Source: Ustulina deusta (lineage: Eukaryota > Ascomycota > Sordariomycetes > Xylariales > Xylariaceae). Taken from it: DNA of 64,000 nt. Shown in pieces: positions 1 to 42,516 of the stretch. Below the pieces are notes generated by a model that was not told the origin of the DNA, searched no databases, and saw nothing but the letters and a program-made list of their open reading frames with translations. How positions within the stretch are numbered: position 1 is the first letter of the stretch; every line of letters starts with the position of its first letter. A program made the translations under genes and the position numbers. The stretch covers positions 186,001 to 250,000 of the forward strand of contig JAJNNX010000068.1 in NCBI GenBank assembly GCA_023159155.1. The letters run 5' to 3'.

Positions 1-3000
1 TCTTAATGGCATAGAGAGAGTCGATCGTGTTGGCTACGCCGAGACAGAGCGGTGCAACTATGAAATGTGTTAGCCTTTGCTTAGATGGTGTGTTGAACAC
101 GATAAGATCATGGATTAGAGATGCAGCGTTTGCATAAGCTCCTAAAGTTTAACAAGAAACGAAGAGAAGAAAAAAAAAACCAAGAAAGAAGAAAAAACGG
201 AGAGAGAGGGAAAGGGGAGAATGGGAGGTTACATACTCATGTGGAATTTCGCTCCACCAGCGGTCAGATCACGTCCGGAATCAAGACAGCCGTCGAGGAC
301 GGCGGAGAGCAGCGGCGAGGGACATATGCCCTCGAGGTTACCATAGGCGACCAGCAAACTATTGTAACTCCGGTTGATGAGCCAATAGAGCTGCTTGAGG
401 AAGATGTCCTGGAGCTGGGCGAAGGATTTGATCTTGGGCGCCGGAGGGGAGCGGAAGGTCTCCTTCAGGCCACGGAGATGCACCGATCCGGCGGCGCCGT
501 AGGTCGCGCCCTGATTGAGGGTCTGCTCCAGCGCCGCCATGGGCTCGACGTTGCCGAAGGTGAATTCCGAGGCCCCCGCCATCATGGGCTCGTAGCATCC
601 GTCGGCGGCGTAGTCGCGGGACCAGGCGCGGGTGATGCTCTTCCCCGATCGGAAGAGCCCCTCGCACAGCTTGTCGTCGTTGTAGAGGACCGGGTGGGCG
701 CCGCCCGCCAGAATCGACCTCGCGGCTTCGTCGGTGTACTCTCTGGGTATGCCCTTGTACACCCGCAGCGAGAGACTCGGGGCGTTGACGGGGATGCGAC
801 GTGCGGCCTTCAGGCACAGGAGAGTGACGGGATTCGCACCGCCCTCTGGGACTTCGTCGTCCGTCGCCTTGTATCCGCCTATGGTGACCTGCTGCACCCA
901 CTGGTTGATGCCGCCGCCCTGGTGGAAGTTGCCGCCGAGCCCGTTGACGGAGGTGGTGCCATAGCCTCTGTAGTCGTAGATGAAGGCGCGGTTGACGAAC
1001 GCGCGCTCCCCGATCTTGATCCAGAGACAGTCCATGATATCCTGGGCACGGCCAAGATCGATAAGGTCCTTGGCGAGATCTTGCTCCAGGAAGGGCCAGA
1101 GGATCTGGTCCAGTCGGCTGAAGGCGGTGAGCTCGCCGACAAGGTGAAGACAGCAGTGGAAGGAGAAGATGAGCTGGACCGCGTCGTGGAAGCTAGTAGG
1201 AGGCTGGTTGGTGAGGCGTTCCAGGCGCTCTTGGACGTCTTTCATATTGGCCTTGTCGTCCGGGTCAGTCGCGTGGTCGTGCGCGCGGCCCGCTATCCTT
1301 GCCCAGTTCTTGAAGTAGGCTTGGACACCTCTGAAAGAGTCGCTGGCGGAAATGAAGAAGGATGCCTTCTCGGAGCCGGGCTCTTCCTTTCCTGCCCGTC
1401 GGTCGAGATCTTCGATCATCCCGGCCACCCCGTGATCGATCAGGGTCTGGAAGTTGGGGACGATGTGTCCCATTGCAGCACCTTCGTCAAGTTGGCACTT
1501 CAGCCACGCCGCCATGATTTCTTCGTCATCCAGGTAATGGACGACCTCCTTTCCTCGACCCAACGTGAAGTCGGGGAGCGAGCCGACGACCAACTCCGTG
1601 GCCGCAATACCAACCAAACCTGTATGTTGCGCGATCTTGGAGTCTAGCGAAGAAAGAATATCGGCGAGGGTCGCAAAGTTCGCAAGGCCTTTGCGCTCGA
1701 GGATCGACTCTGGCACCGACTCCTTGTCGACGACGCTGAGAAGATCTTTCAGGTGCGGTAGGCGTGGGAAATTCTCGGTCTTCATCCAGCCGTCTCGCCA
1801 GTGATTGAAACTTCTCGACAGGAGGCTCAAGACGCGCACGCTGGGCTGGTCGCCCGCGATGTAGTGCCCCTCGGCCATCTGGTGCATGTAGTCTTGCGTG
1901 TTATAGTAGAGGTAGCCGTTGCGGCTGCGAACCTTCCAGTGCGGATCTTCGTACGTATCGTCGCCAGGCGTAACGCCGGAGACGCCCAGCTCTTTGGCCG
2001 ATGGGATATACCAGTAAGCGCCGCCCTGACCTTGGATGAAGTCAAACAAGCGGTCGACGGGCCTCTCCGGATGTTTGCCGAGCATGGACTGCAGGATCGA
2101 CTCGAACCGCTGCTGCTCGTTGCAGAAGGCCACGAACATGATGCCCTCCTCGCGACTGGCGTGTTTGTTGGACTCGTCGTATGGTAGAGCTTGACGAAGG
2201 AGTTTCCTCTGGTCGAGGTTGTCATCCAGGGTATGCGCGCGGTGAACGTGGGCGTTCTCCGCTTTGGAACGCTGCTGGGAGATGATTTCACCGTCAGGTC
2301 GCCGCCCGATCACGGCGTTTAGAGCTTCGCCCGGCTGAGAGGTCAGGTCGGGCCAGTCGAAGACGAATTTCTGCGTGAAGCCGAAACAGGAGCCATTGTC
2401 TAGGCCATCGCTGTCGACCAGGATGTCTTCGGCCAAGCTGATAGGGTCATTGGGGTTGGTGACTACAACACTCGGGGTCAGTAATTGCCATGATGAGCGT
2501 GATCCGGAGGGTTCCAAAATCATTGGGGGCTTCCAACACACGAATCTAGCTTGAAAAGGGGCAGGTGGCTGTAAGAGGGAGAAGATGACTCGAAGAGTTA
2601 CGCACTGTGATCAACGTATCGCCCGCCCATCACTCTCCCGTCCGGACGTTTGCCTAATTCGAGATGTTGAATGTCGTTGGCGAGGTTGTCCAGCTCTGAG
2701 ATGACAGTTGATACGATTTGGTTTGCGGTCTTCTTGTCGGGAGACTTGATATAGAGCAGGAAATCGCCACCGGTATCCTTGAAATGGAGGCCGTGCTGAA
2801 GCACCTCACTTGAGATCGGAATGTCCCGTCCGGTCCATCGACCCCAGAGCGCCGGAGAAAAGCCGGCGATGAAGGTGCTGTGAGGGTAGTTCTTGATGGT
2901 CTCCTCGTCTAGCTTTTTGATGAGCTTAATCAGTGATTCCTTCGTTTCTTCGTCATGCTTGTGGAGGAAGATAGTCAAGATGGAACCGAAGATGGGTCTC

Positions 3001-3068
3001 ATGGGAAGGCCGCGCTGAGCAGCACCAAGGGCTGAGCGAAGCGCTCTATCCATTTTGCTCTTCGCCAT
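1..3068 (-). CDS. DyP-type heme peroxidase fused to a glycyl radical enzyme (partial, runs off left edge)
   Basis: Exons 3068-2606, 2462-237 and 57-1 (continuing outside); introns 2605-2463 (GTGCGT, TACTGAC branch, TAG) and 236-58 (GTATGT, CTAAC branch, TAG). All phases agree and give at least 915 residues. Residues 1 to about 315 form a DyP-type (YfeX-like) peroxidase: GGDFLLYIK strand, GRYVDH in place of GxxDG, ITNPNDP, a proximal-His candidate in AHVHRAHT (about H228), a distal-Arg candidate in RKLLRQALPY (about R244), and the closing GGAYWYIPS. From about 370 the chain is a glycyl radical enzyme: GHIVPNFQTLI, TSFHDAVQLIF, thiyl/base site DGCYEP (C777, E779) and GRDLTAGGAKFHM. After the last intron it reads LGVANTIDSLYAIK, which normally shortly precedes the RVxGY glycyl radical loop; that loop lies outside the window. 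GC-x-EP resembles choline lyase/diol dehydratase-type members rather than the CC of true pyruvate formate-lyase. No activase gene is seen nearby. The fold assignments are secure; substrate and activity are unknown. Confidence 0.85.
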
Positions 3069-20172: not shown

Positions 20173-21620
20173 ATGCCTGTCACCGCTTTCGAGCTTCCTG
20201 AGCGGCATAAGTATCAGAACGGCTTCGGTTCTTATTTCGAGTACGTAATTCATCATCTATAAAGCGCGGTACCTATGCCTCGCATGCTCATCTTGCCAGA
20301 ACCGAAGCCGTGGCGGGTGCTCTCCCGGTCGGTCAAAACTCTCCCCAGAAACCCCCGCATGGGCTGTATGCCGAGAAGCTCTCTGGTACCGCCTTCACGG
20401 CTCCCCGACACGAAAATCAGCAATCCTGGCTGTACCGGATCTTGCCCTCCTGTGCCCACCCTCCCTTTGCTTCGGTGGCCGACAGACCCCTTAAATCCGA
20501 CAAGTCTGCTGACCCTGCGCGGCTCGAGTACATCCCAAACCAGCTGCGGTGGGACCCCTTCGACCATGATAGCCAGTCTGATTTCGTGTCTGGGATGCAC
20601 CTTGTCGCGGGCGCTGGCGATCCCACTCTGAAACAGGGCATCGGCGTGTACATATACGCTGCTGGCAACTCTATGGACAACTACTCCGCTTTCTATTCAG
20701 CTGATGGGGATCTGTTGATTGTGGCGCAAGAGGGCGCTCTCGACATCAGGACCGAGTTGGGATGGCTCCTTGTCCGGCCCATGGAGATATGCGTCATCCC
20801 ACGGGGTGTCAAATATCAAGTCCATCTGCCGTCGGGGCCAGCGCGAGGCTACGCTCTGGAATTATACCAAGGACACTTCACCCTTCCAGAATTAGGCCCC
20901 ATCGGTTCCAATTGTCTCGCCAATGCTCGCGATTTCCAAGCCCCTGTTGCTTGCTTCAGCGAAGACTACGGGGCGACCGCTTCAGAGGGACCGAACTCTT
21001 ATACAATCACTGTCAAGTTCAACAATTCACTGTTCCAAACCAAGCAGCCCCATACACCCTTCGACGTCGTGGCATGGCACGGCAATTACTATCCTTACAA
21101 GTACGACCTCGGCCGGTTCAACACCATCGGCTCCATCTCATACGACCACCCGGATCCGTCCATCTTCACCGTGCTGTCGGCTCTATCGGACCACCCCGGG
21201 ACTGCAATTGCCGATTTCGTCATCTTTCCTCCACGCTGGCTAGTTGCCGAAGGCACCTTCCGTCCACCATGGTACCACCGAAACACCATGTCAGAATTCA
21301 TGGGCCTCATCGCGGGTGATTACGATGCAAAGAAGGGAGGGCAGGGGGGTTTCATGCCCGGAGGAGCCAGCTTACACAACGTGATGAGCGGCCATGGGCC
21401 CGATGCGAATAGCTTCGAGGGTGCGCGCAATGCGGAGCTCAAGCCGGCGTTGGTGGGCAAGGGCAGCTGTGCCTTCATGTTTGAGAGCTGCTTGATGGTT
21501 GGCGTAACGGAATGGGGTCGGAAAACGTGTAGAAAGGTCCAGGAGGGCTACAGCGACGAGAGCTGGGGTGGCGTCAAGGTCCATTGGAAACGGCCGGACG
21601 TTACCAACTCTGGTGGATAG
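20173..21620 (+). CDS. hmgA: Homogentisate 1,2-dioxygenase
   Basis: Exons 20173-20240 and 20300-21620; intron 20241-20299 (GTACGT...CCAG), 462 residues, the normal length. The enzyme opens the ring of homogentisate to maleylacetoacetate in phenylalanine/tyrosine catabolism and uses non-heme Fe(II). The first exon supplies the conserved [10 protein letters not shown]. Then come [17 protein letters not shown] and NQLRWDPF. The metal-binding region is [19 protein letters not shown] with [10 protein letters not shown], and the later HGPD supplies the second His. The start was chosen because the upstream exon restores the family N-terminus. Fumarylacetoacetase, two steps on, lies 16 kb away in the same window. 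The gene may be a pathway-specific paralogue rather than the housekeeping copy; sequence alone does not decide. Confidence 0.95.
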
Positions 21621-33204: not shown

Positions 33205-35972
33205 CTAAAATGTATCTCTAAAAGGCGGATAAACACTACCACGCGGTACAAAGGGCATAGATGGCGCACCCGGGGCGACTGTTGCGCCCACAGCACTGGG
33301 ATCAGTGTGTCCCAAGCCATCATGTAACTGGGTGTGTTTAACCGAGACGCCTTCGAATATCCTCGACATCTCGCTAGACATCTGCACTCCGGTCTGCATG
33401 CCGTCGTACCCTGGGGATGGCGGCACCAAAAGTGCGTGGGCGAAAGGAGAACTCGTCAAAGGGCTTGGTCCTGTCTGGCCATGACCGGTGGCCAAGCCGG
33501 CCATCGTTAGCGCAGCACTCGAGTGGGGATCCTCAGCGAGCCCAAGCCGAGGAGCCACGTCCCGTAACGATTTAACCGTGCCCCAGAGACGCTTCGATAC
33601 CCACGACTTCGCCGACATGTCCTTGAGGAGTTCTAGGGCCATGTAGAACTCATCCCGGCACGATGAGCTAAAATTCACCGGCGCGTGACAAGACGCCACG
33701 AATAGTATGGTAATGGCCGATGATAGGAACTGGTGATAGAATATCTGCATCCTCCGGTAGACATTTGTGGTGTTGTTTAGATGCGCTAGATACCGAATCG
33801 TGTTTTTGGCCAGCTTAACAGCAACCTCGGCATCACGCAAATTGTCCATGATGCTACTGTGCGTGTGAAGGATAGGAGTGTGAAGCCACATTCGGATTTG
33901 GTTGTATCGCAGCCATGTCCAGATTTGTAGACGCTGGATATCGTACTCCTTCTGTGAATTTACTGGTGGACTAAGATACTGGGGTAAATCCTCCCAATCA
34001 GAAAGGTCCAGCTGTACTTCCTTTGGTAGGTCATTATACCACTTCTTGATCAGCTGATCCAAGTCTTCGATATCGTCTACTGGCCCATCCATGGTTACCT
34101 CCGCGTCAAAATGTCGAACGAAGCGCCACACTTTTCCGCTGAGTTTTGAATATCTTATCATCATCACCAGGAAAGGGTGCTGTTCCTAACATGATAAGTA
34201 TTAGAGAATTATGCAGGTGGAGCGGGCGGAAGTAAAAATCAAGAAAGACTCCAAATCATTTCGTGCATCTTCGGGTTTGCAATCCCACTTACCGGAGATG
34301 GCAGATCAGGATCTATCTCCTCATCTGGCACTACATATGGAAGGCCAGCAGAGAATGCCCATCGACGATCCAGGACGTACGCGCTCCAAAATGTGTTGAT
34401 AGCCAGGCTGCGTTCCTCTTCATCTTTGATCTGCTCAACGATATCCCGTCGGTGAAGACCCAATTCGAGGCATAGTCGCACAACCTGACCCATGACGCGC
34501 CAACATAAGACCTCGTCCGCCGAAAGAAAATGGTATCCAGCCTAAAACTGTCAGTCGTTGTTGAATGCAGGATCACGCGATATTGCGATAACGGAGACCA
34601 TCTCCGAAGGGAAGAGCGGACATACAACCAGAGCCAAAAAAGGCAGATTCTGGACATTCGGCGGATCACTCATCAGCATCCTATTCGCAATGGGCTTGAT
34701 ACCAGCAAAAATCCTTTGAGCCTGCGCACTATTTCCATGACCTTCGACAAGCAACCCACTACACAGGACAATCTTCAGTAGCAAAGTATTCGGATCATTG
34801 ATACCGCCCTCCTGACCGTCCGCAAAACCACTTTTTTTAGCAGCCGTCATCCATGTAGCTAGCGTTTTGGCGTGAGAGATGATCGAGTCGATGCGAAGAA
34901 CAGGGTACATGATGCCCACTTCTTCTTCATAGATGCGGCACAGACGAATCATCTCATCTTTGTCAAGTTCCCACAGTGCATCCGCCGTAGAATTCTCGGT
35001 AGGTGGAACAACCTGAGGCGCCAGCTTAGGAGACGTGCCAGGCGTCTCGTGGGGGTGGCCGTTTGCATCGGCGTTGTCACTTGGGTAAGAGTATCCCATC
35101 TTATGCAAGGTGTTCTTCGCAACATCCAGGCTAAAGCGATTACTTGTAGGACCCCGGAAGGCAAAAGGAGGCTGACGTGGTTGCGGGAGCATCGTCATGG
35201 TGGTCGAAGTCGGCGTGCTGGAGGTCGAGGGCCCAGTCAGGGTGCGGTCAGGTTGGTATAGAGGGCCACCGGCTCGCAAGGTTTCGGCTCGCAGTGCATT
35301 TAAGTTGTTGAACAGGGTGTCGACCTGCTCTTGGAGATGGTTCACCTGCGCTGCCATCTGCTTGAACTCGTCCGAGTCTTTGAGGCTGCTGGCGCAGCAG
35401 TTTGGGGCGTATAGGCATTGCAGGTTGAGGTGGCCACACCGCCCACAGGGGGTCTCTCCGTTGCATTTGATCTTGCGGCGCTTGCATTCATTGCAAGCGA
35501 TGGAAATGTATCGATTCCGCTTACTTCTCTGCTGGGGCCCAGACCTAGGGGCGTTCGGCGAGTCGTCATCGTCGTCGTCGACGTCGCCGCCGGGGGTTTT
35601 CCGCTTTGCACCAATAACCGAAGCCGGTGTGGGCGCCCCCGGCGTTGAAGCGGATACGGATGGCGTTGCGGACGATGTTACTGTGTCGTGTCGCGCGGCG
35701 GAGGGGGGTTGTTTCTTCTTCGTTGTCTTCTTGTCGGGTTTATTAATGCCCTGGCGCGGTTGTGTCCGCTGCGCAGTGGAAGGAGAGGCGTTGTGATTCG
35801 AGGGCGCATCGACGGCGAGAGACCCTCCGTGGCCCACGTTTGCTATCGTCGCGGTCGCTGTTGGAGACGGGGTGCGCAGTGTAATGGGGGGCACAACTGT
35901 GGCGGCTGCAGGAGGATCAGGGAGTGTGGTTAGGAATCGCACCTCGCCGACTTGATTCTCGAAGAACTCCAT
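33205..35972 (-). CDS. Zn2Cys6 transcription factor with fungal-specific TF domain
   Basis: Exons 35972-34626, 34541-34293 and 34185-33205; introns 34625-34542 (GTATGT...TTAG) and 34292-34186 (GTAAGT...TTAG), all phase 0, 858 residues. A low-complexity Ser/Thr/Pro N-terminus with an acidic run (DDDDDD) precedes the binuclear zinc cluster at about 160-187, CNECKRRKIKC...CGRC...C, with the standard 2-6-5-2-6 spacing. A short coiled coil follows (QMAAQVNHLQEQVDTLFNNL). The middle homology region begins at RLCRIYEEEVGIMYPVL. It runs through LPFLALVAGYHFLSADEVLC (restored by intron removal) and RVMGQVVRLCLELGLHRR to the heme-regulator-like helical region. It is a nuclear DNA-binding regulator, plausibly of the neighbouring aromatic or tailoring genes, though nothing in the sequence ties it to a target. 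Confidence 0.93.
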
Positions 35973-37486
35973 GCCCTTGTATCTTCGGCTGCTATTTCAT
36001 TCCTCTCTCGCATTCGCAGCGCAAGCATCGCAAGCGTCATGGCCGCGGGATTTGTCCGTATGAGCGGTAGGGGAGAGGGGAGTAGTAGGAGGTTTGGAGA
36101 CGGTGAGAAAGCCTGTAATGTGCATTCCAAGAAACATCCTACGCTATACCGATACGTCCTTGCCCGGGTTGCGAGAATCTCCTTCCAGCTTCCTGTTGGT
36201 CGCTGTAGGTTACCCTGATTGTCAATACTAGCATATTACTGGGCAGGTTACCGCACAGTATACGTGTTGTGTCCTGTATCCATACCTCCACTACATGCAC
36301 TAGAACTAAGTGATAGGTGTCTTAGTGTAGGAAGTAACAAATTACCTAAGGTATTTGCCTGTAGGCTAGTAGATGGCACTGCCTAGCGTAATGTACGCAT
36401 AGGTCATAGGTAACTGCATGGACCATTCTCCAGGCAGGGCTTACCTCTGGGCTGACAGGCTACATTACAGATGTTCTAAACTTCCGTGACGATCCCCAGC
36501 TTCCAAATCACCGATCTAAGCCGCTTCAAGCAATTTAAAGCGGGAAAGCATTCGATAACCTGCTTTAGCTGAAAATCGAATCCTTGGCTCTGCAAGCCTT
36601 CAACTCTAAAAGCAGAACAGTAACAAGATCTTGTTTTTTCCCCTGCCTGCCCAGACAAATTAATCCTCTCCATCCTATTTTGCGCCTATTTTGTAGCTTA
36701 GATTACCGATAAGGCATTGACACGAGAACACCCTAAAATACCACGTGGGCATATCATGTGGGTAGGTACTTACTAGTATCCTTCCTGATCATTAGTGGCA
36801 TCGTGAAATTCATTCAGGCGTGTAACATGCTAGGTCGGCAATATCCGGGAGACATCCCTTAATTAGGTACAGAAACTATGTAGATGGTAGCTATTACCAT
36901 CAAGTTACGACAAGTACACCGCGATAATGGGTAATCTATGTATCTAATTATGTATCCTTTCACAATCATGGCTTAGGTCACAGGTACCGGTAGACCAACT
37001 TGCTTTTTGCACTTTTATAGGAGAGGAGTTGCAATAGATTCTTACACTCAACGTAATCTATACTATAGTAAGCTTAGTCCAACACTACACCTAGCGAAAA
37101 CAGGTAGGTGCCGAAAGCACTGATGGCGCTAATAAATCATTAGGTAAGATGTCTTTTACAGTATATACTTAGTGGTTTATACTGTACGACGTACACTAGA
37201 ACTTCGAGGCGCGTAACCTGAAAAGAGATTACCAGTTATTCCAGAAAAGATATTTTTATCTATCCATCACGATACAGCGCTCGTTCGGGTAAGGTAGTAA
37301 GAAAGTCTAATTATCTGAAAGATTACAGAGTCGAGCTTCATTGATGGATATCGCTCACGCTAGAGTCGATCTACGATAGTAGATATGTTGAGATTTGTCG
37401 GCCGAGATTTGTTTCTTAGTTGCGCATGAGGCGTTTCAGAAATACACTATCCATCATGAGACGAAGTCTCCATTCTTATCGCCGTG
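35973..37486. other. Intergenic between TF start and FAH 3' end
   Basis: About 1.5 kb without a supported gene. It is rich in short taggta/cctagg words, as in several other spacers of this window. It carries an 8-bp inverted repeat (acagtata/tatactgt, 12-bp loop) at 37158-37185. Confidence 0.5.
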
Positions 37487-38837
37487 TCACAGAGGCAGGG
37501 CTGTTTCAATTCGCCCAATACACTCGCCAAAGCCGACCCTCTGCCCCGGCTTCCCACAGCTTCCGCGGATTGTAATGGTATCGCCGTCCTTCAAGAACCG
37601 ACGAACATCCATGCCATAAAGCATAATGTCTTCTTTGCCTCCTTTGCTGAGCTCTAGGAGACTGCCGCTTTCTCCGGGGTTCGGCCCGCTGATAGTGCCT
37701 GAGCCGAGTAAGTCGCCGGTATTCATCGGACAGCCGCCCAGAGAGTGGTGGGCTATCATCTGCGGGAATGACCACATCAAGTTCTTCGAACTTGTCTGGG
37801 AAATCGTCGTCGTATCTCCTTCGGGTGCTGTGAAATGTCAACGACGAAATTTCATTATCCGATTGACATGTTCGCCACCTACTTCGGATGTCGACCTCTA
37901 GCTCGATATCGAACACTGTCTCTTCTCTGCCGTCTTTTAGGTAGTCTTGTATCGCCGTTTGATTCTCAATTGCCTTTGTCCGGAATGGTTCCAGGGCGTC
38001 GGCTAAGACTACCCAGGGGCTAATGGTCGAGGCGAAATTCTTGCCGTTAAATGGGCCCAGTGGAACATATTCCCATGTTTGTATGTCGCGCGCGCTCCAA
38101 TCATTCAGAAGAACGTACCCGAAAATGTGATCCTCAGCATCGGCGACCTTGATGGGCGACCCCATCCGGTTCGGTGTTGCGATGATGCAGCCTAATTCAA
38201 GCTCCATGTCTAACCGTCTGCTGGGCCCTGTGATAGGCTGCTTGGGCTCTGCAGTCGGATCAAGCAGAATCTGCCCGTTTGGACGACGAATAGGTGTGCC
38301 TGAGACCACAATACTAGAAGCCCGTCCATGGTACCCCACAGGCAGGTGCGTGTAGTTTGGCTGCAGAGCGTTCTGCGGCCCGCGAAACATGACGCCGACT
38401 GCATAAGCATGATGGTATCCCGCATAAAAATCAGTGTAATCCCTAATGTCCATGGGAAGATGACTCTTGACACTTCTTTGGGGGAGAAGAGCATTTTGTC
38501 GTAATTCATCGTTGTCTCTCAGCACCTCCGGGTATGTCGTCTCAGCCGATAGCAGGCGTTGTATAACACTCCGCACATCTCGATGTAGCCCCCGTCCCAA
38601 GGCTGCAAATGCATTGAGTGTTGGTTCAGAGAAGACATTCTCCTTTCCTACTAGGCCTGGGAAGAGTTCCGTGAACCGGTTATGAGTAGACAGGACTTTG
38701 AGATCAAGAACATGAGCGCCAATCGCCACAGCGACATGCGGCGCGGGGTCGCTTGATGTGCTTATTATTCCAAAGGGGATGTTGGCGAGGGAGAAAGGAG
38801 TCTCGGGGGAGACATCAGGCACCCAAGTGGAACTCAT
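37487..38837 (-). CDS. fahA: Fumarylacetoacetase
   Basis: Exons 38837-37883 and 37827-37487; intron 37882-37828 (GTAGGT...ACAG), 431 residues, the family length. It hydrolyses fumarylacetoacetate to fumarate and acetoacetate, the last step of homogentisate catabolism. The N-terminal domain is followed by MDIRDYTDFYAGYHHA (metal-ligand Asp, catalytic His), LPVGYHGRASSIVVSG, MELELGCII (Glu ligands) and VLLNDWSARDIQTWEY (Asp ligand). After splicing come MWSFPQMIAHHSLGGC and TGDLLGSGTISGP, the conserved C-terminal core. The intron is needed because the unspliced frame loses this core. Together with homogentisate dioxygenase at 20.2 kb, two of the three homogentisate-pathway enzymes are present; the GST-like isomerase is not seen. 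Confidence 0.95.
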
Positions 38838-39566
38838 AGTATCGATTAATTCAGCGAGAAATCAATCGTCTTGAGGGGAAATAAAGATCCTCCAAATGCT
38901 CTTAGAGATACTTGGACTGACAATCCTGACGTCGAGAGGCCAAGATGTCCGACGCAAGCCGCGCACATATTCCGCTGTGGGGTTCTTCTTCCAGCATCCC
39001 CGCCAAGTTCTTTCAACTACCGATGTCACTCTGATTCTTGGCTCGGGATCTATAATAATACCTACCACTATAAATGTTTATTTAGAGGAGAACTCAAAAA
39101 AGGCCCTGGGGGATGTAAAGGCTTGTATCTTTCTTTGACAGCATGAAAATAAACGCCTATTTAAAATGTTGCGACTTGCGGCTTAGGACTAGTAATACAG
39201 TACACATAGCAATAGACGGACAGTCAACGATATCGGTTAAGAGAACGTACGAGAGTATGTTGAAACCCATTTATATTTTTTTACTCATCTTTGACCCCAG
39301 CAGTTTAGTACGGAGATGTAGCTCAGCGATGGAAAATGAGTCCAATAGAAGTGTCACCTATAATATAACAGGATATTGATACACCTGAATACCCCCTTTG
39401 TATGACAACCCAAACCCCTAAAACCAGTCGTTAGGTATGCATCATCTACTACCAGCCCAAGGTGCACGGACAACAATGCATATGATAGAACCTGCACACG
39501 AGATAAACTCCTGACATCGAGTACATAGAAAAAAAAATAAAAAAAAAATAAAAAAGACTCTAATTA
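38838..39566. other. Intergenic, FAH promoter side
   Basis: About 730 bp. An A-rich tract lies at about 39529-39556, beyond the peroxidase stop codon, and may include its polyadenylation region. No gene is seen. Confidence 0.4.
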
Positions 39567-40720
39567 TCACCGCGAAGGGATGACCTTCGTGATTTCCGTA
39601 AGCTCGTTCAAGTTGTTGACGCCGAGAATACTCATGCGGAAGTAAGCTTGAGCGTAAGCCTTGTAGAACCCAAGTCAGCGATTTTGCACGGGGGCAAACG
39701 TATCCAGTTTTCCCATAACACCACACGGGAAAGGGAAAGGGAAACACTTACGGGACTCCACAACGCCTGGCCGGAGGCGCCGGCGAAAGCCTTCCATTGC
39801 CCCCGGGTCGTCGCGTGGGTGGCGAGCGCCTTGTCGCTGTGCAGGATGAAGAAGGTCTTGTTATCGCCCGTCAGGGTCTCGCCGTAGAAGGAGGCGTCCC
39901 AGATCTGCGGGTCCGTGTCCAGCGGGGCGCCGGCGCGGCTCGGGTCGACGAAGCGTTGCTTCGCGGCCGTGTGGGCGCCGACGAGCGCGACGAGATCGCT
40001 CGCGGTGAACGTCTTGTTGCGGAAGAGGTCGATGAGGATCGGCGCGTCCATGGCGGGCGAAGGTAGCTTGCCCGTGGGGGCCGCGCGAGAGTCGTCCTTC
40101 CTGCCCGCGAAGGCGCGGATGCGCGGGCCCCCTGGACACGCCACGGTCCCGACGATGGCGCCGAGCTGGATGATGTCTGCCATGCCCGCGCCGTAGGGGT
40201 GATACGCGGCGTAGTAGGTCTGCGTCACGGCGCCGATCTCCGCCAGGCCGAGGTTCTCTCTGCGGCTGAGCTCGTCTGATAGAAGGAGGGAGCCGTCTGC
40301 TCCGCCGTACGTGGAGTAGATGTCCCAGGCGGCGGCATCGTGGAAGCCTTGGCGGATGGCGCCGCGACCGAGGTTGGTGCAGCCGTTGGCATCGGCGAAG
40401 TCACCCCACATCCTGTTGGCGACGTAATACCACACACAGAGAGGATCTTTTGTGCAGGCACTGGAGCCGAGTGCTCCGGGTGGCTTATAGGCAGCGCTCG
40501 TACCGGGGTCGGTAGCGCCCGTTCCTAGCTGGAGGATGTTTTTGATAGTCTGTCCCACTGTCGTGAGTATGCCCGAGACTAGGTCGCCGAGGAGGGTACC
40601 AGAACGGGCACCGAGGACGAAATCATCGCGACTTTGGATCTCAGCCATGACTCTGTCCATGCCCGGGTGGGCAAAGACTGGAGCAGCAGCTGAGACGAGA
40701 AAGACGGTAGATATCTTCAT
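39567..40720 (-). CDS. Secreted class II-like fungal heme peroxidase
   Basis: Exons 40720-39752 and 39659-39567; intron 39751-39660 (GTAAGT, CTGAC branch, CAAG), phase 0, 353 residues. A signal peptide is present (MKISTVFLVSAAAPVFA). The distal side is AIRQGFHDAAAW (R123, H127), the calcium-binding GGADGSLLL follows, and the proximal His lies in DLVALVGAHTAAKQ (H250). This is the plant/fungal peroxidase superfamily of the ligninase-like ascomycete group. It oxidises phenolic or other substrates with H2O2 outside the cell. Whether it has manganese or surface-Trp sites of true ligninases cannot be judged by eye. The short last exon ends SILGVNNLNELTEITKVIPSR. It is unrelated in fold to the DyP peroxidase at the left edge. 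Confidence 0.9.
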
Positions 40721-42516
40721 GTTGAATCGCTGAATCTAGGAGTGAGTGAGGGTGTATAATGATATGTCTACACAACAGTAGGGGTGTATGTAGACCAAGC
40801 TCAAAAGGCGTGATATGTTCACGAAAGGATGGCAATATATGAAAGAGAATGTCGGTTCGGCACGCTGTGGATAGGAAGTCTAGTCAACAGATCGTGTTGG
40901 GAGAGGAAATAGTCTTCATCTTATATCATATCTCCATTTCTTAGCCTCGTTGTTTTTTATACCAACACTGCAAAGCCCCATGCCTCTCCCGCTTGTACCA
41001 ATCCCGCGGTTGCCGAGAGGGCGAGCTGCAGCCTCCGGGCAGCCTGCGGTGGTCGGGTACATACGTTGATTACTTTTTGGGTAGAAGTTGCGAGAGACTT
41101 GCGTTGACGACCGACCCTCTGTCTGCAGGTGTTTCTACGGTGGGTCAACATGTCAGGTACAGGGCTTGCAAGGTTGAGTTTGGTACCAAGATCCAACATG
41201 CAGTCATTCTAGACGACTCTTTTTTCTTGGTTGGGGAGAGGTACGGAGAGCGGTGCGGCTAACGCGAGGCACGTAAGGATAGGTCTGTAGCTAGACTTCG
41301 GGATGCGTCCCAGACGTTGACCATATTGGAACATGGCGGCGGCTTGGGCTTGAACTAGGCGTTGGTCACGAGCCATCAGCTTCGCTATATCGCCACGCGC
41401 TATAGGGAGGCTGTCTAAAGTACGTATGATTTTTAAGGCAACAAGTGATATGTTGCCATCACTTTGGCGCCTTTGCCCAGCCTGATCGTTAATGTGATGA
41501 CAATAGGCAAGACCTTGGTTGGCCGGGAAAATCGAAGCCTCAGTGCCCCCCTTGGCACTAGGTTGGCGTCGTGTGTCGACTTTGCTTGGAATATCCAATA
41601 ATGCCTATACTGTGTCATTACCATGCATTCGAACTGTTGGAAGCTTGCGTAAAGGAACAGCTGATAAAAAGATTGAACGCCGAATTCCGGGTTGTGAACC
41701 GGTGCACAGCCCGGCCGACATATCCTTCGGTCCCGGTTATGCAACCCAAACGCACGAAAACCGACAGTGTGGTGTTGAGCTGAGGCCCTTTTTATCTGTG
41801 GTGGTCAGATTCACCGACAGGTGTGTGTCGTCGGTTCTGCCTGGGCCGACGTTGGGGACACTTCATTTAATCTTCGTTCATACGAGAATTTCGTTCCCGG
41901 TCACGATGATGCACACCGGCGGACCAGAAAAGAAAGGCCAAGAAAGATTCAGCTCAGGTCAGCGGACTAAATAAGCAGACACCTGAGAGGACAGCCGCTC
42001 CTATATTTAGTCACACTTGGCAGCTCAGTCTAGATGGTACTAGATCCACTGTGCATCTGCCTACCGTTCACCACACCCTGCATGATGCAAGCCACACCTG
42101 GGTATAGTGTAGGCATGAGAGTGTTTCTTGCCGATCAACACCGGGGTCAGGACTGCTAGGTACCGTATAGGACTATTATAATCAAACCATGCCTCGAGTG
42201 GCTGCATGAATGCCGAGGTCGAGAGTAAGAAAAACGGTGATACCTAGACGCGCAGCTTAACAACGCGGGCTGCGGTGAGCGATAATTGTAAGATTAAGAG
42301 GGATGGAGCATAATGCTGTGCGACTTGAGTGCAATTTTTAATCCGGACATTAGAAGGGAGTCTTTTATCAGTGGTTACTCGTAGAGAACATGGTGCCGAG
42401 GCCAACTGAGGCACCCAAGTCCTCCTCATCAAATCTCGCTCTGCTTCAGTGCGACGACACACAGATTTTCGAACCGCGCGGCTCAATATATTCGCAACAA
42501 CCCACCAATGACGTTG
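40721..42516. other. Intergenic, no supported gene
   Basis: About 1.8 kb between the peroxidase start and the dienelactone hydrolase stop. Several medium ORFs overlap on both strands without domain character, so I leave them out. Confidence 0.45.

Follow-up and report, generated by a model that had tools for sequence, protein, structure and literature searches.

What does a heme peroxidase of the DyP family do when it is joined, in one protein of a filamentous ascomycete, to a glycyl radical enzyme (GRE)? To our knowledge, all GREs that have been characterised depend on anoxia and on a radical-SAM activase that is sensitive to oxygen. An earlier note on this locus of Ustulina deusta had named three roles for the pairing: the peroxidase might protect the glycyl radical, it might generate the radical in place of a radical-SAM activase, or the GRE fold might have a role that does not involve a radical. 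We consider these to be the right candidates, and we weigh them here against the gene itself, its relatives in bacteria and fungi, and a search for activases in the genomes that carry it.

A single gene encodes the peroxidase and the GRE

The window, by which we mean the whole stretch of 64,000 nucleotides that was analysed, is C89:186001-250000 in a 56-Mb assembly. The DyP-GRE gene starts in the window with an ATG at position 3068 (minus strand) and ends outside it, with a stop at C89:185180. After removal of two introns (window 2605-2463 and 236-58), its three exons give a continuous frame of 1188 amino acids (Table 1). The annotated protein from U. deusta (P0001, 1183 amino acids) corresponds to residue 6 to the end of this product, with a single difference (G1043A). 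Because P0001 is identical over both junctions, the splice sites of both introns are confirmed, and the earlier note had placed these introns correctly. Intron 2 has an alternative AG, 84 nt further upstream, that is also in frame, but the 28 residues that it would add are absent from P0001. Profile searches match both of the families that had been proposed, DyP (TIGR01413 and PF20628) and PFL-like (PF02901). Together with the 1188-residue frame and P0001, these domain matches show that the fusion is real. In the genome of U. deusta, PF02901 has two matches, both within this gene, so no other gene is matched; for DyP there is a second match, on C34.

Table 1. Features of the DyP-GRE gene in the window
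Feature	Window position	Strand	Remarks
Exon 1	2606..3068	-	ATG at 3068; the NCBI model (P0001) begins five codons later
Intron 1	2463..2605	-	GT..AG, 143 nt; splits codon 155; same junction in P0001
Exon 2	237..2462	-	
Intron 2	58..236	-	GT..AG, 179 nt; splits codon 897; same junction in P0001
Exon 3 (start)	1..57	-	Runs on to its stop outside the window, at C89:185180 (L003 4180)
DyP heme peroxidase domain, residues 30-312	1990..2981	-	Contains intron 1
Asp153, distal acid-base residue of the DyP by alignment	2610..2612	-	
His226, proximal heme ligand of the DyP by alignment	2248..2250	-	
Arg244, distal arginine of the DyP by alignment	2194..2196	-	
GRE module, from about residue 337	1..1917	-	PFL-like match at residues 473-1003; runs on outside the window
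Cys777-Tyr778-Glu779 (DGCYE)	589..597	-	Aligned with known GREs: Cys of the thiyl radical and Glu as the base

The earlier note did not know whether this architecture had been catalogued; it is in print. Two papers describe it in other ascomycetes: Zamocky et al. 2016 (PMC5041501) in Chaetomium cochliodes, as a DyP-PFL fusion, and Kimani et al. 2021 (PMC8469222) in Xylaria grammica, as g1956. The 2016 paper had already proposed a transfer between proteobacteria and ascomycetes, and a radical-SAM protein as putative activase of the fusion (PMC5041501); a G-X-X-D-H motif was noted in 2021 (PMC8469222). In C. cochliodes, H2O2 induced the homologue 3-fold, and with peroxyacetic acid the induction was 18.5-fold (PMC5041501). 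The excerpts of PMC5041501 and PMC8469222 do not mention a split GRE and DyP, the GGW signature, or the absence of activases in bacterial carriers (all described below), and our searches of the open-licence PMC literature gave no report of the split form, the activase absence, or a second DyP type. The fusion itself is thus already known, and what we add is a GGW clade over seven phyla, the split form, and the absence of activases in carriers.

By alignment, the catalytic residues of both modules are present

Alignments show that the residues expected of both catalytic modules are present: His226 and Arg244/Asp153 in the peroxidase, and Cys777, Glu779, and G1164 in the GRE. In the peroxidase, TIGR01413 (Dyp family) matches residues 30-312 with 133.8 bits (the cut-off is 100.5), and PF20628 (Dyp_perox_C) matches residues 151-311 (1.8e-23); the N-terminal model, PF04261, is absent from the Pfam matches listed. 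The proximal histidine and the distal arginine are kept in 46/46 fused rows of our alignment and in 12/12 rows from the split form. The distal position is aspartate in 33/46 fused rows and in 12/12 split rows, and glutamate in the remaining 13/46 fused rows. In the fungal fusion, the GXXDG motif is modified (it reads GRYVDH), with Asp153 present. The solved sequences that are nearest to the fungal fused DyP are 9bkx (57.7 bits), DypB (49.4 bits), and YfeX (39.3 bits), which are of class B. As judged from these matches, the fused DyP of U. deusta is class-B-like, with a modified GXXDG. Both of the fused DyPs that were compared with solved structures, this one and the one from L036, came out as class B.

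We placed the start of the GRE module from the split relatives, whose matches start at query residues 324-345. The PFL-like match (PF02901) has an E-value of 1.4e-99. An alignment to choline lyase pairs DGCYE (775-779) with the thiyl/base motif GCVE, and RVRMGGW (1159-1165) with RVAGY. This glycyl loop lies to the left of position 1, outside the window, which is where the earlier note had suggested extending the sequence. The glycine that aligns with the radical glycine, G1164, is constant, and it is directly followed by Trp1165, versus the expectation of RVxG[YF]. PF01228 (Gly_radical) has no match in the fungal genome, nor in the fusion protein at E 0.1; it is present in the precomputed annotation of three split relatives (P0180, P0191, and P0196).

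These motifs vary little. DGCxE is in 240/240 proteins among the matches listed for the fusion and split GRE searches. Among the 120 of 344 matches that were listed for the fusion search, DGC[YF]E is in all 120 and R[VI]RMGGW is in 114; the other six are without the loop region. For the split GRE search (120 of 329 matches listed), DGCxE is again in 120 and R[VN]RMGGW is in 119, with CGMGGW in the last one. Our inspection of the bacterial loci, which leaves out L033, L034, L041, and L059, found R-T-GGW instead in five loci (L035, L037, L038, L040, and L055) and in the fragment L044. Four tryptophans (Trp376, 676, 939, and 1165) are kept in 46/46 fused and 12/12 split rows, and they are absent from YbiW and PflD of E. 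coli.

Fused genes are found in ascomycetes and in bacteria

Of 8000 candidates that were scored in a protein search, 344 matched. All of the 120 that were listed, P0001 among them, are PFL-like; 114 also have Dyp_perox_C and six are PFL-like only. The named ascomycetes among the matches listed are Xylariales, Fusarium and its relatives, Chaetomium and its relatives, Cryphonectria, Lindgomyces, and lichen MAGs; the named bacteria are Andreprevotia, Chromobacterium, Collimonas, Janthinobacterium, Massilia, and a Chloroflexia MAG. A tblastn scan of a collection of bacterial and archaeal genomes gave 47 loci. At 32 of these (L013-L042, L055, and L058), the match extends across the DyP and the GRE, although stops break the frame in L024 and L058. 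At 13 others (L043, L045-L054, L056, and L057), the match is confined to the GRE part, and L044 and L059 are fragments. L059, from Brevibacillus dissolubilis, has only a fragment of a GRE of this type (an ORF of 252 amino acids), and it is likely a relic. The carriers that are named come from seven phyla (Pseudomonadota, Myxococcota, Cyanobacteriota, Actinomycetota, Bacteroidota, Chloroflexota, and Verrucomicrobiota), and many of their genera are known to be aerobic. A search of 72,556 plasmid records gave a single one, from Asticcacaulis, with a place that covers at least 80% of the fusion.

For a quick tree under LG+G4, we took 63 GRE domains and placed the root on five canonical GREs; the position of the root is unsure, as the tree program flagged the long canonical branches. 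The 17 fungal rows, sampled from among the named fungal proteins, group in a single clade (SH-aLRT 100) inside the bacterial fusions. Their nearest neighbor is P0029, a metagenome protein, followed by a group that consists mostly of betaproteobacteria. The 12 split rows, a sister group in which the GRE is unfused, also form one clade (100). Since the 17 sampled fungal proteins are nested as one clade among bacterial fusions, the fusion is not a fungal invention, and the tree fits one transfer of the fusion from bacteria to these ascomycetes.

Artefacts do not account for the fused gene. P0001 and the many full-length fusions rule out an assembly error or two separate genes: with both domains in 114 of 120 proteins among the matches listed (of 344), an assembly join is very unlikely. 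Bacterial contamination of the U. deusta assembly is ruled out by the two GT-AG introns and by the placement of the protein in the fungal clade.

In the split form, a separate DyP gene follows the GRE

In 12/12 split loci that could be assessed, a DyP gene lies directly downstream of the GRE gene on the same strand. (The thirteenth locus, L054, ends at a contig edge.) This adjacent gene is the sole DyP match in 8/8 split genomes that were searched. Nine of the split DyPs were typed by Pfam models, and those of L046, L050, and L051 by BLAST clustering with those nine. Our crude ORF calling missed the DyP of L056, which was recovered by profile searches, and the GRE cluster from these calls is without L033, L034, and L041.

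We compared one split DyP, from L043, with solved structures. It had 103 bits to EfeB-type chains and about 29 bits to class B, so by this comparison of a single protein the split DyP is EfeB-like. A tree of the DyPs places the 12 split ones together in a single group. However, with the few references in this tree, fused and split DyPs were not separated, and the DyP types rest on the three proteins that were compared with solved structures. (We disregarded the row for the second fungal DyP, from C34, which was in the wrong reading frame.) Two DyP types would thus be joined to one clade of GREs, most simply via separate recruitment. It is also possible that a fused gene underwent fission and that the two parts then diverged.

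No GRE activase is recognised in most bacterial carriers

We searched all 47 carrier genomes with the activase model TIGR02494. Four of them (G003, G004, G016, and G020) have a match at 127-152 bits. The other 43 have nothing above 42.5 bits with this model, and the best of these matches is a MoaA-like protein. Exactly the four genomes with an activase have a canonical PFL as well (690-725 bits with PF02901), and each canonical PFL adjoins the activase. In the other 43 carriers, the PF02901 matches all have the size of a DyP-type GRE (there are two in G021), apart from a short untyped fragment in G045 and the relic in G047. So among carriers without a canonical PFL, 0/43 have a GRE activase that TIGR02494 can recognise. 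The weak matches to TIGR02494 that we inspected by eye were MoaA-like (L066, L072, and L073) or AmmeMemoRadiSam-like (L067-L069). Activases that are too divergent for this model would escape, and the carriers include several draft genomes or MAGs.

As a control, we used 120 genomes from the order of G020, nine of which have a match to PF02901. We take the eight besides G020 to be ordinary GREs because their matches start at model position 3-27 (DyP-type matches start near 145), with just 310-334 bits in G062 and G162. In 7/8 of these genomes, an activase match of at least 130 bits lies about 1.2 kb or less from the GRE. The exception, G077, has a short PFL frame (569 amino acids, model positions 4-558), and its TIGR02494 match is 46.9 bits. 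We also searched 20 of the 111 controls without a GRE, and 20/20 were at or below 48.2 bits with TIGR02494. Pooled, an activase is present in 11/12 genomes versus 0/43 (Fisher p 1e-10), where the genomes are related to each other and several are drafts or MAGs. The absence of a recognisable activase from 43/47 bacterial carriers gives indirect genomic support to the idea that the peroxidase replaces the activase, and suggests that it might.

U. deusta has seven radical-SAM genes, which we typed by eye: MoaA, lipoyl synthase, TYW1, ELP3, viperin-like, biotin synthase, and a distant PflA-like protein. (The exons of the viperin-like and PflA-like genes were also scanned with profiles. The viperin-like gene, in L009 on C31, matches NF038283 with 216.8 bits, versus a cut-off of 180.) The earlier note had advised a search of the genome for an activase. 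The exon of the PflA-like protein that was scanned stays below every NCBIfam cut-off (PFLA gives 29.1 of 231.75 bits). Many fungi share this family, to whose members databases often give the name "pyruvate formate lyase activating enzyme." It also occurs in fungi such as Colletotrichum, which is absent among the matches listed (120 of 344 fusions). When 30 of the 47 bacterial carriers were searched with the fungal protein, there was no real relative, only two weak matches: the canonical PFL activase of G016 and an AmmeMemoRadiSam-like protein in G021. The PflA-like protein of U. deusta is probably of the same kind as the putative activase named in the 2016 paper (CHGG_03160; PMC5041501).

Gene neighborhoods

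With crude ORF calls, no neighboring family is common to more than four fused loci. Among the 13 split loci, a PLD-like gene is common to eight, a cytidine deaminase to four, and a gene without a clear Pfam name to six; one member of this last family ends in a glyoxalase domain. HAD-like genes come next in some split loci, and the order in a plasmid copy from Hymenobacter is GRE (annotated as two pieces), DyP, PLD, HAD. A fused locus from Chloroflexi, L030, also has a PLD-like gene and the gene without a clear Pfam name. Conflict-type genes near the split cassettes include Septu PtuA/PtuB (L053), CHAT proteins (L050), an LmuA-like protein (L045), and a subtilase (L046), and the PLD-like protein of L048 is fused to a trypsin-like protease. 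A link of the split cassette to defence or conflict is possible, going by hand-picked neighbors of L043, L045-L053, L056, L057, and L077 that were taken without a control.

Of 725 ORFs called at the 47 carrier loci, three have CX3CX2C. One, in Hellea (L051 6665-8029), looks radical-SAM-like by eye; another is the canonical PFL activase of Chromobacterium alticapitis (L039 21212-21991); and the third, in L032, is just 103 amino acids and looks spurious. Around the U. deusta gene, an ORF of 1151 amino acids that is made of repeated short modules lies to the left (L004 1060-4515, +), and ARAGORN finds no tRNA in L003, despite a tRNA-like stretch seen by eye. Elsewhere in the window are a homogentisate dioxygenase (20211-21617, +) and a fumarylacetoacetase-type gene (37506-38858, -), about 16 kb apart, which we take to act in tyrosine breakdown. 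A Zn-cluster regulator (34551-35993, -) lies between these two, and the window has another heme peroxidase gene, from the PF00141 superfamily (39632-40732, -).

How might the radical be made?

We propose, with more doubt than trust, that this is a peroxidase-partnered GRE that does not depend on an activase, and that the DyP uses H2O2 to make the radical. The protein is a two-module enzyme in which the heme peroxidase would be the dedicated redox partner of the GRE and would stand in for the radical-SAM activase. H2O2 would turn the DyP heme into compound I, and compound I would oxidise tryptophans or tyrosines that are specific to this family. This could lead to the glycyl radical or to the thiyl radical directly. 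Trp1165, beside the glycine, and the other family-specific tryptophans would be the likely relay. The GRE would then be fired under air and peroxide stress, and might run a GCxE-type reaction (dehydratase- or lyase-like) on a substrate. We rest this proposal on the constancy of GGW and DGCxE, the two DyP types on one clade of GREs, the absence of activases in 43/47 carriers, and the conserved set of tryptophans. We count against it the miss by PF01228, the PflA-like protein in fungi, and the glutamate in place of aspartate in 13/46 fused DyPs. Two other points also count against it: oxygen cuts glycyl radicals, and in C. alticapitis the fusion is 4-5 kb from a canonical pair of pfl and activase.

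Some radical-SAM protein might activate the GRE instead (in fungi, perhaps the PflA-like one), so that the DyP only clears peroxide near an oxygen-sensitive radical. U. deusta does have the PflA-like protein, and the authors of PMC5041501 assumed such an activase. The peroxide induction of the Chaetomium gene (PMC5041501) agrees with this explanation, but it fits both activation by the peroxidase and protection. We nevertheless think it unlikely, as the PflA-like exon is below the NCBIfam cut-offs, the family occurs in Colletotrichum, which is outside the fusions among the matches listed, its only matches in the 30 bacterial carriers searched are the two weak ones, and 43/47 bacterial carriers have no recognisable GRE activase at all.

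It seems rather improbable that the DyP and the GRE perform consecutive steps of a pathway, with a GRE fold that has no stable glycyl radical. Such a role would explain the aerobic carriers and the missing activases without any new radical chemistry, and it would suit the failure of PF01228 to match the fungal fusion protein. However, the glycine loop, the thiyl cysteine, and the glutamate are constant in both fused and split forms, and a non-radical role should have relaxed at least the glycine. Two DyP types on one GRE also suit a partner better than a relay of substrates. Finally, an ordinary GRE might lie dormant in air and be activated under anoxia by an activase that we did not recognise, with an incidental DyP. 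Anoxic pockets do exist in soil, wood, and biofilm habitats, and four carriers have an activase, which in one case lies 4-5 kb from the fusion. But the association with DyP occurs in two architectures and with two DyP types, and no activase was recognised in 43/47 genomes, so we consider a coincidence of this kind very unlikely.

Activation by the peroxidase therefore remains our preferred explanation. A broader version, which is still more tentative, is that aerobes run a glycyl or thiyl GRE whose radical comes from a heme peroxidase and H2O2, and that this system evolved with two DyP types and passed from bacteria to ascomycetes. With a peroxidase partner at every locus that could be assessed, and no recognisable activase in 43/47 carriers, a glycyl or thiyl radical made by peroxide is directly testable. 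If the proposal is true, it would be a second activation chemistry for GREs. It would also open a way to radical biocatalysts that are compatible with oxygen, and it would change the view of which organisms use GRE chemistry.

Comparison with known systems

The gene from U. deusta has an N-terminal DyP and a C-terminal PFL-like domain in one frame, as in the fusions of Chaetomium cochliodes and Xylaria grammica, and belongs to that family. Its peroxidase keeps the His/Arg/Asp of Rhodococcus DypB, encapsulin-associated DyPs, and YfeX, which we take to be class B, but it reads RYVDH for GXXDG and is tethered to a GRE. The nearest solved sequences of the split DyP from L043 are DyPs of the EfeB/deferrochelatase type, but the split DyP gene sits directly downstream of a GRE. 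With the canonical GREs of the PFL2, glycerol dehydratase, and choline lyase kinds (YbiW and PflD; CutC), the fusion GRE has the PFL-like model, the GCxE motif, and a C-terminal glycyl loop in common. In contrast to YbiW and PflD (RVAGYSAFF), the DyP-type GRE has GGW instead of G-Y and forms a separate clade, and it has a DyP partner where canonical GREs have an adjacent radical-SAM activase.
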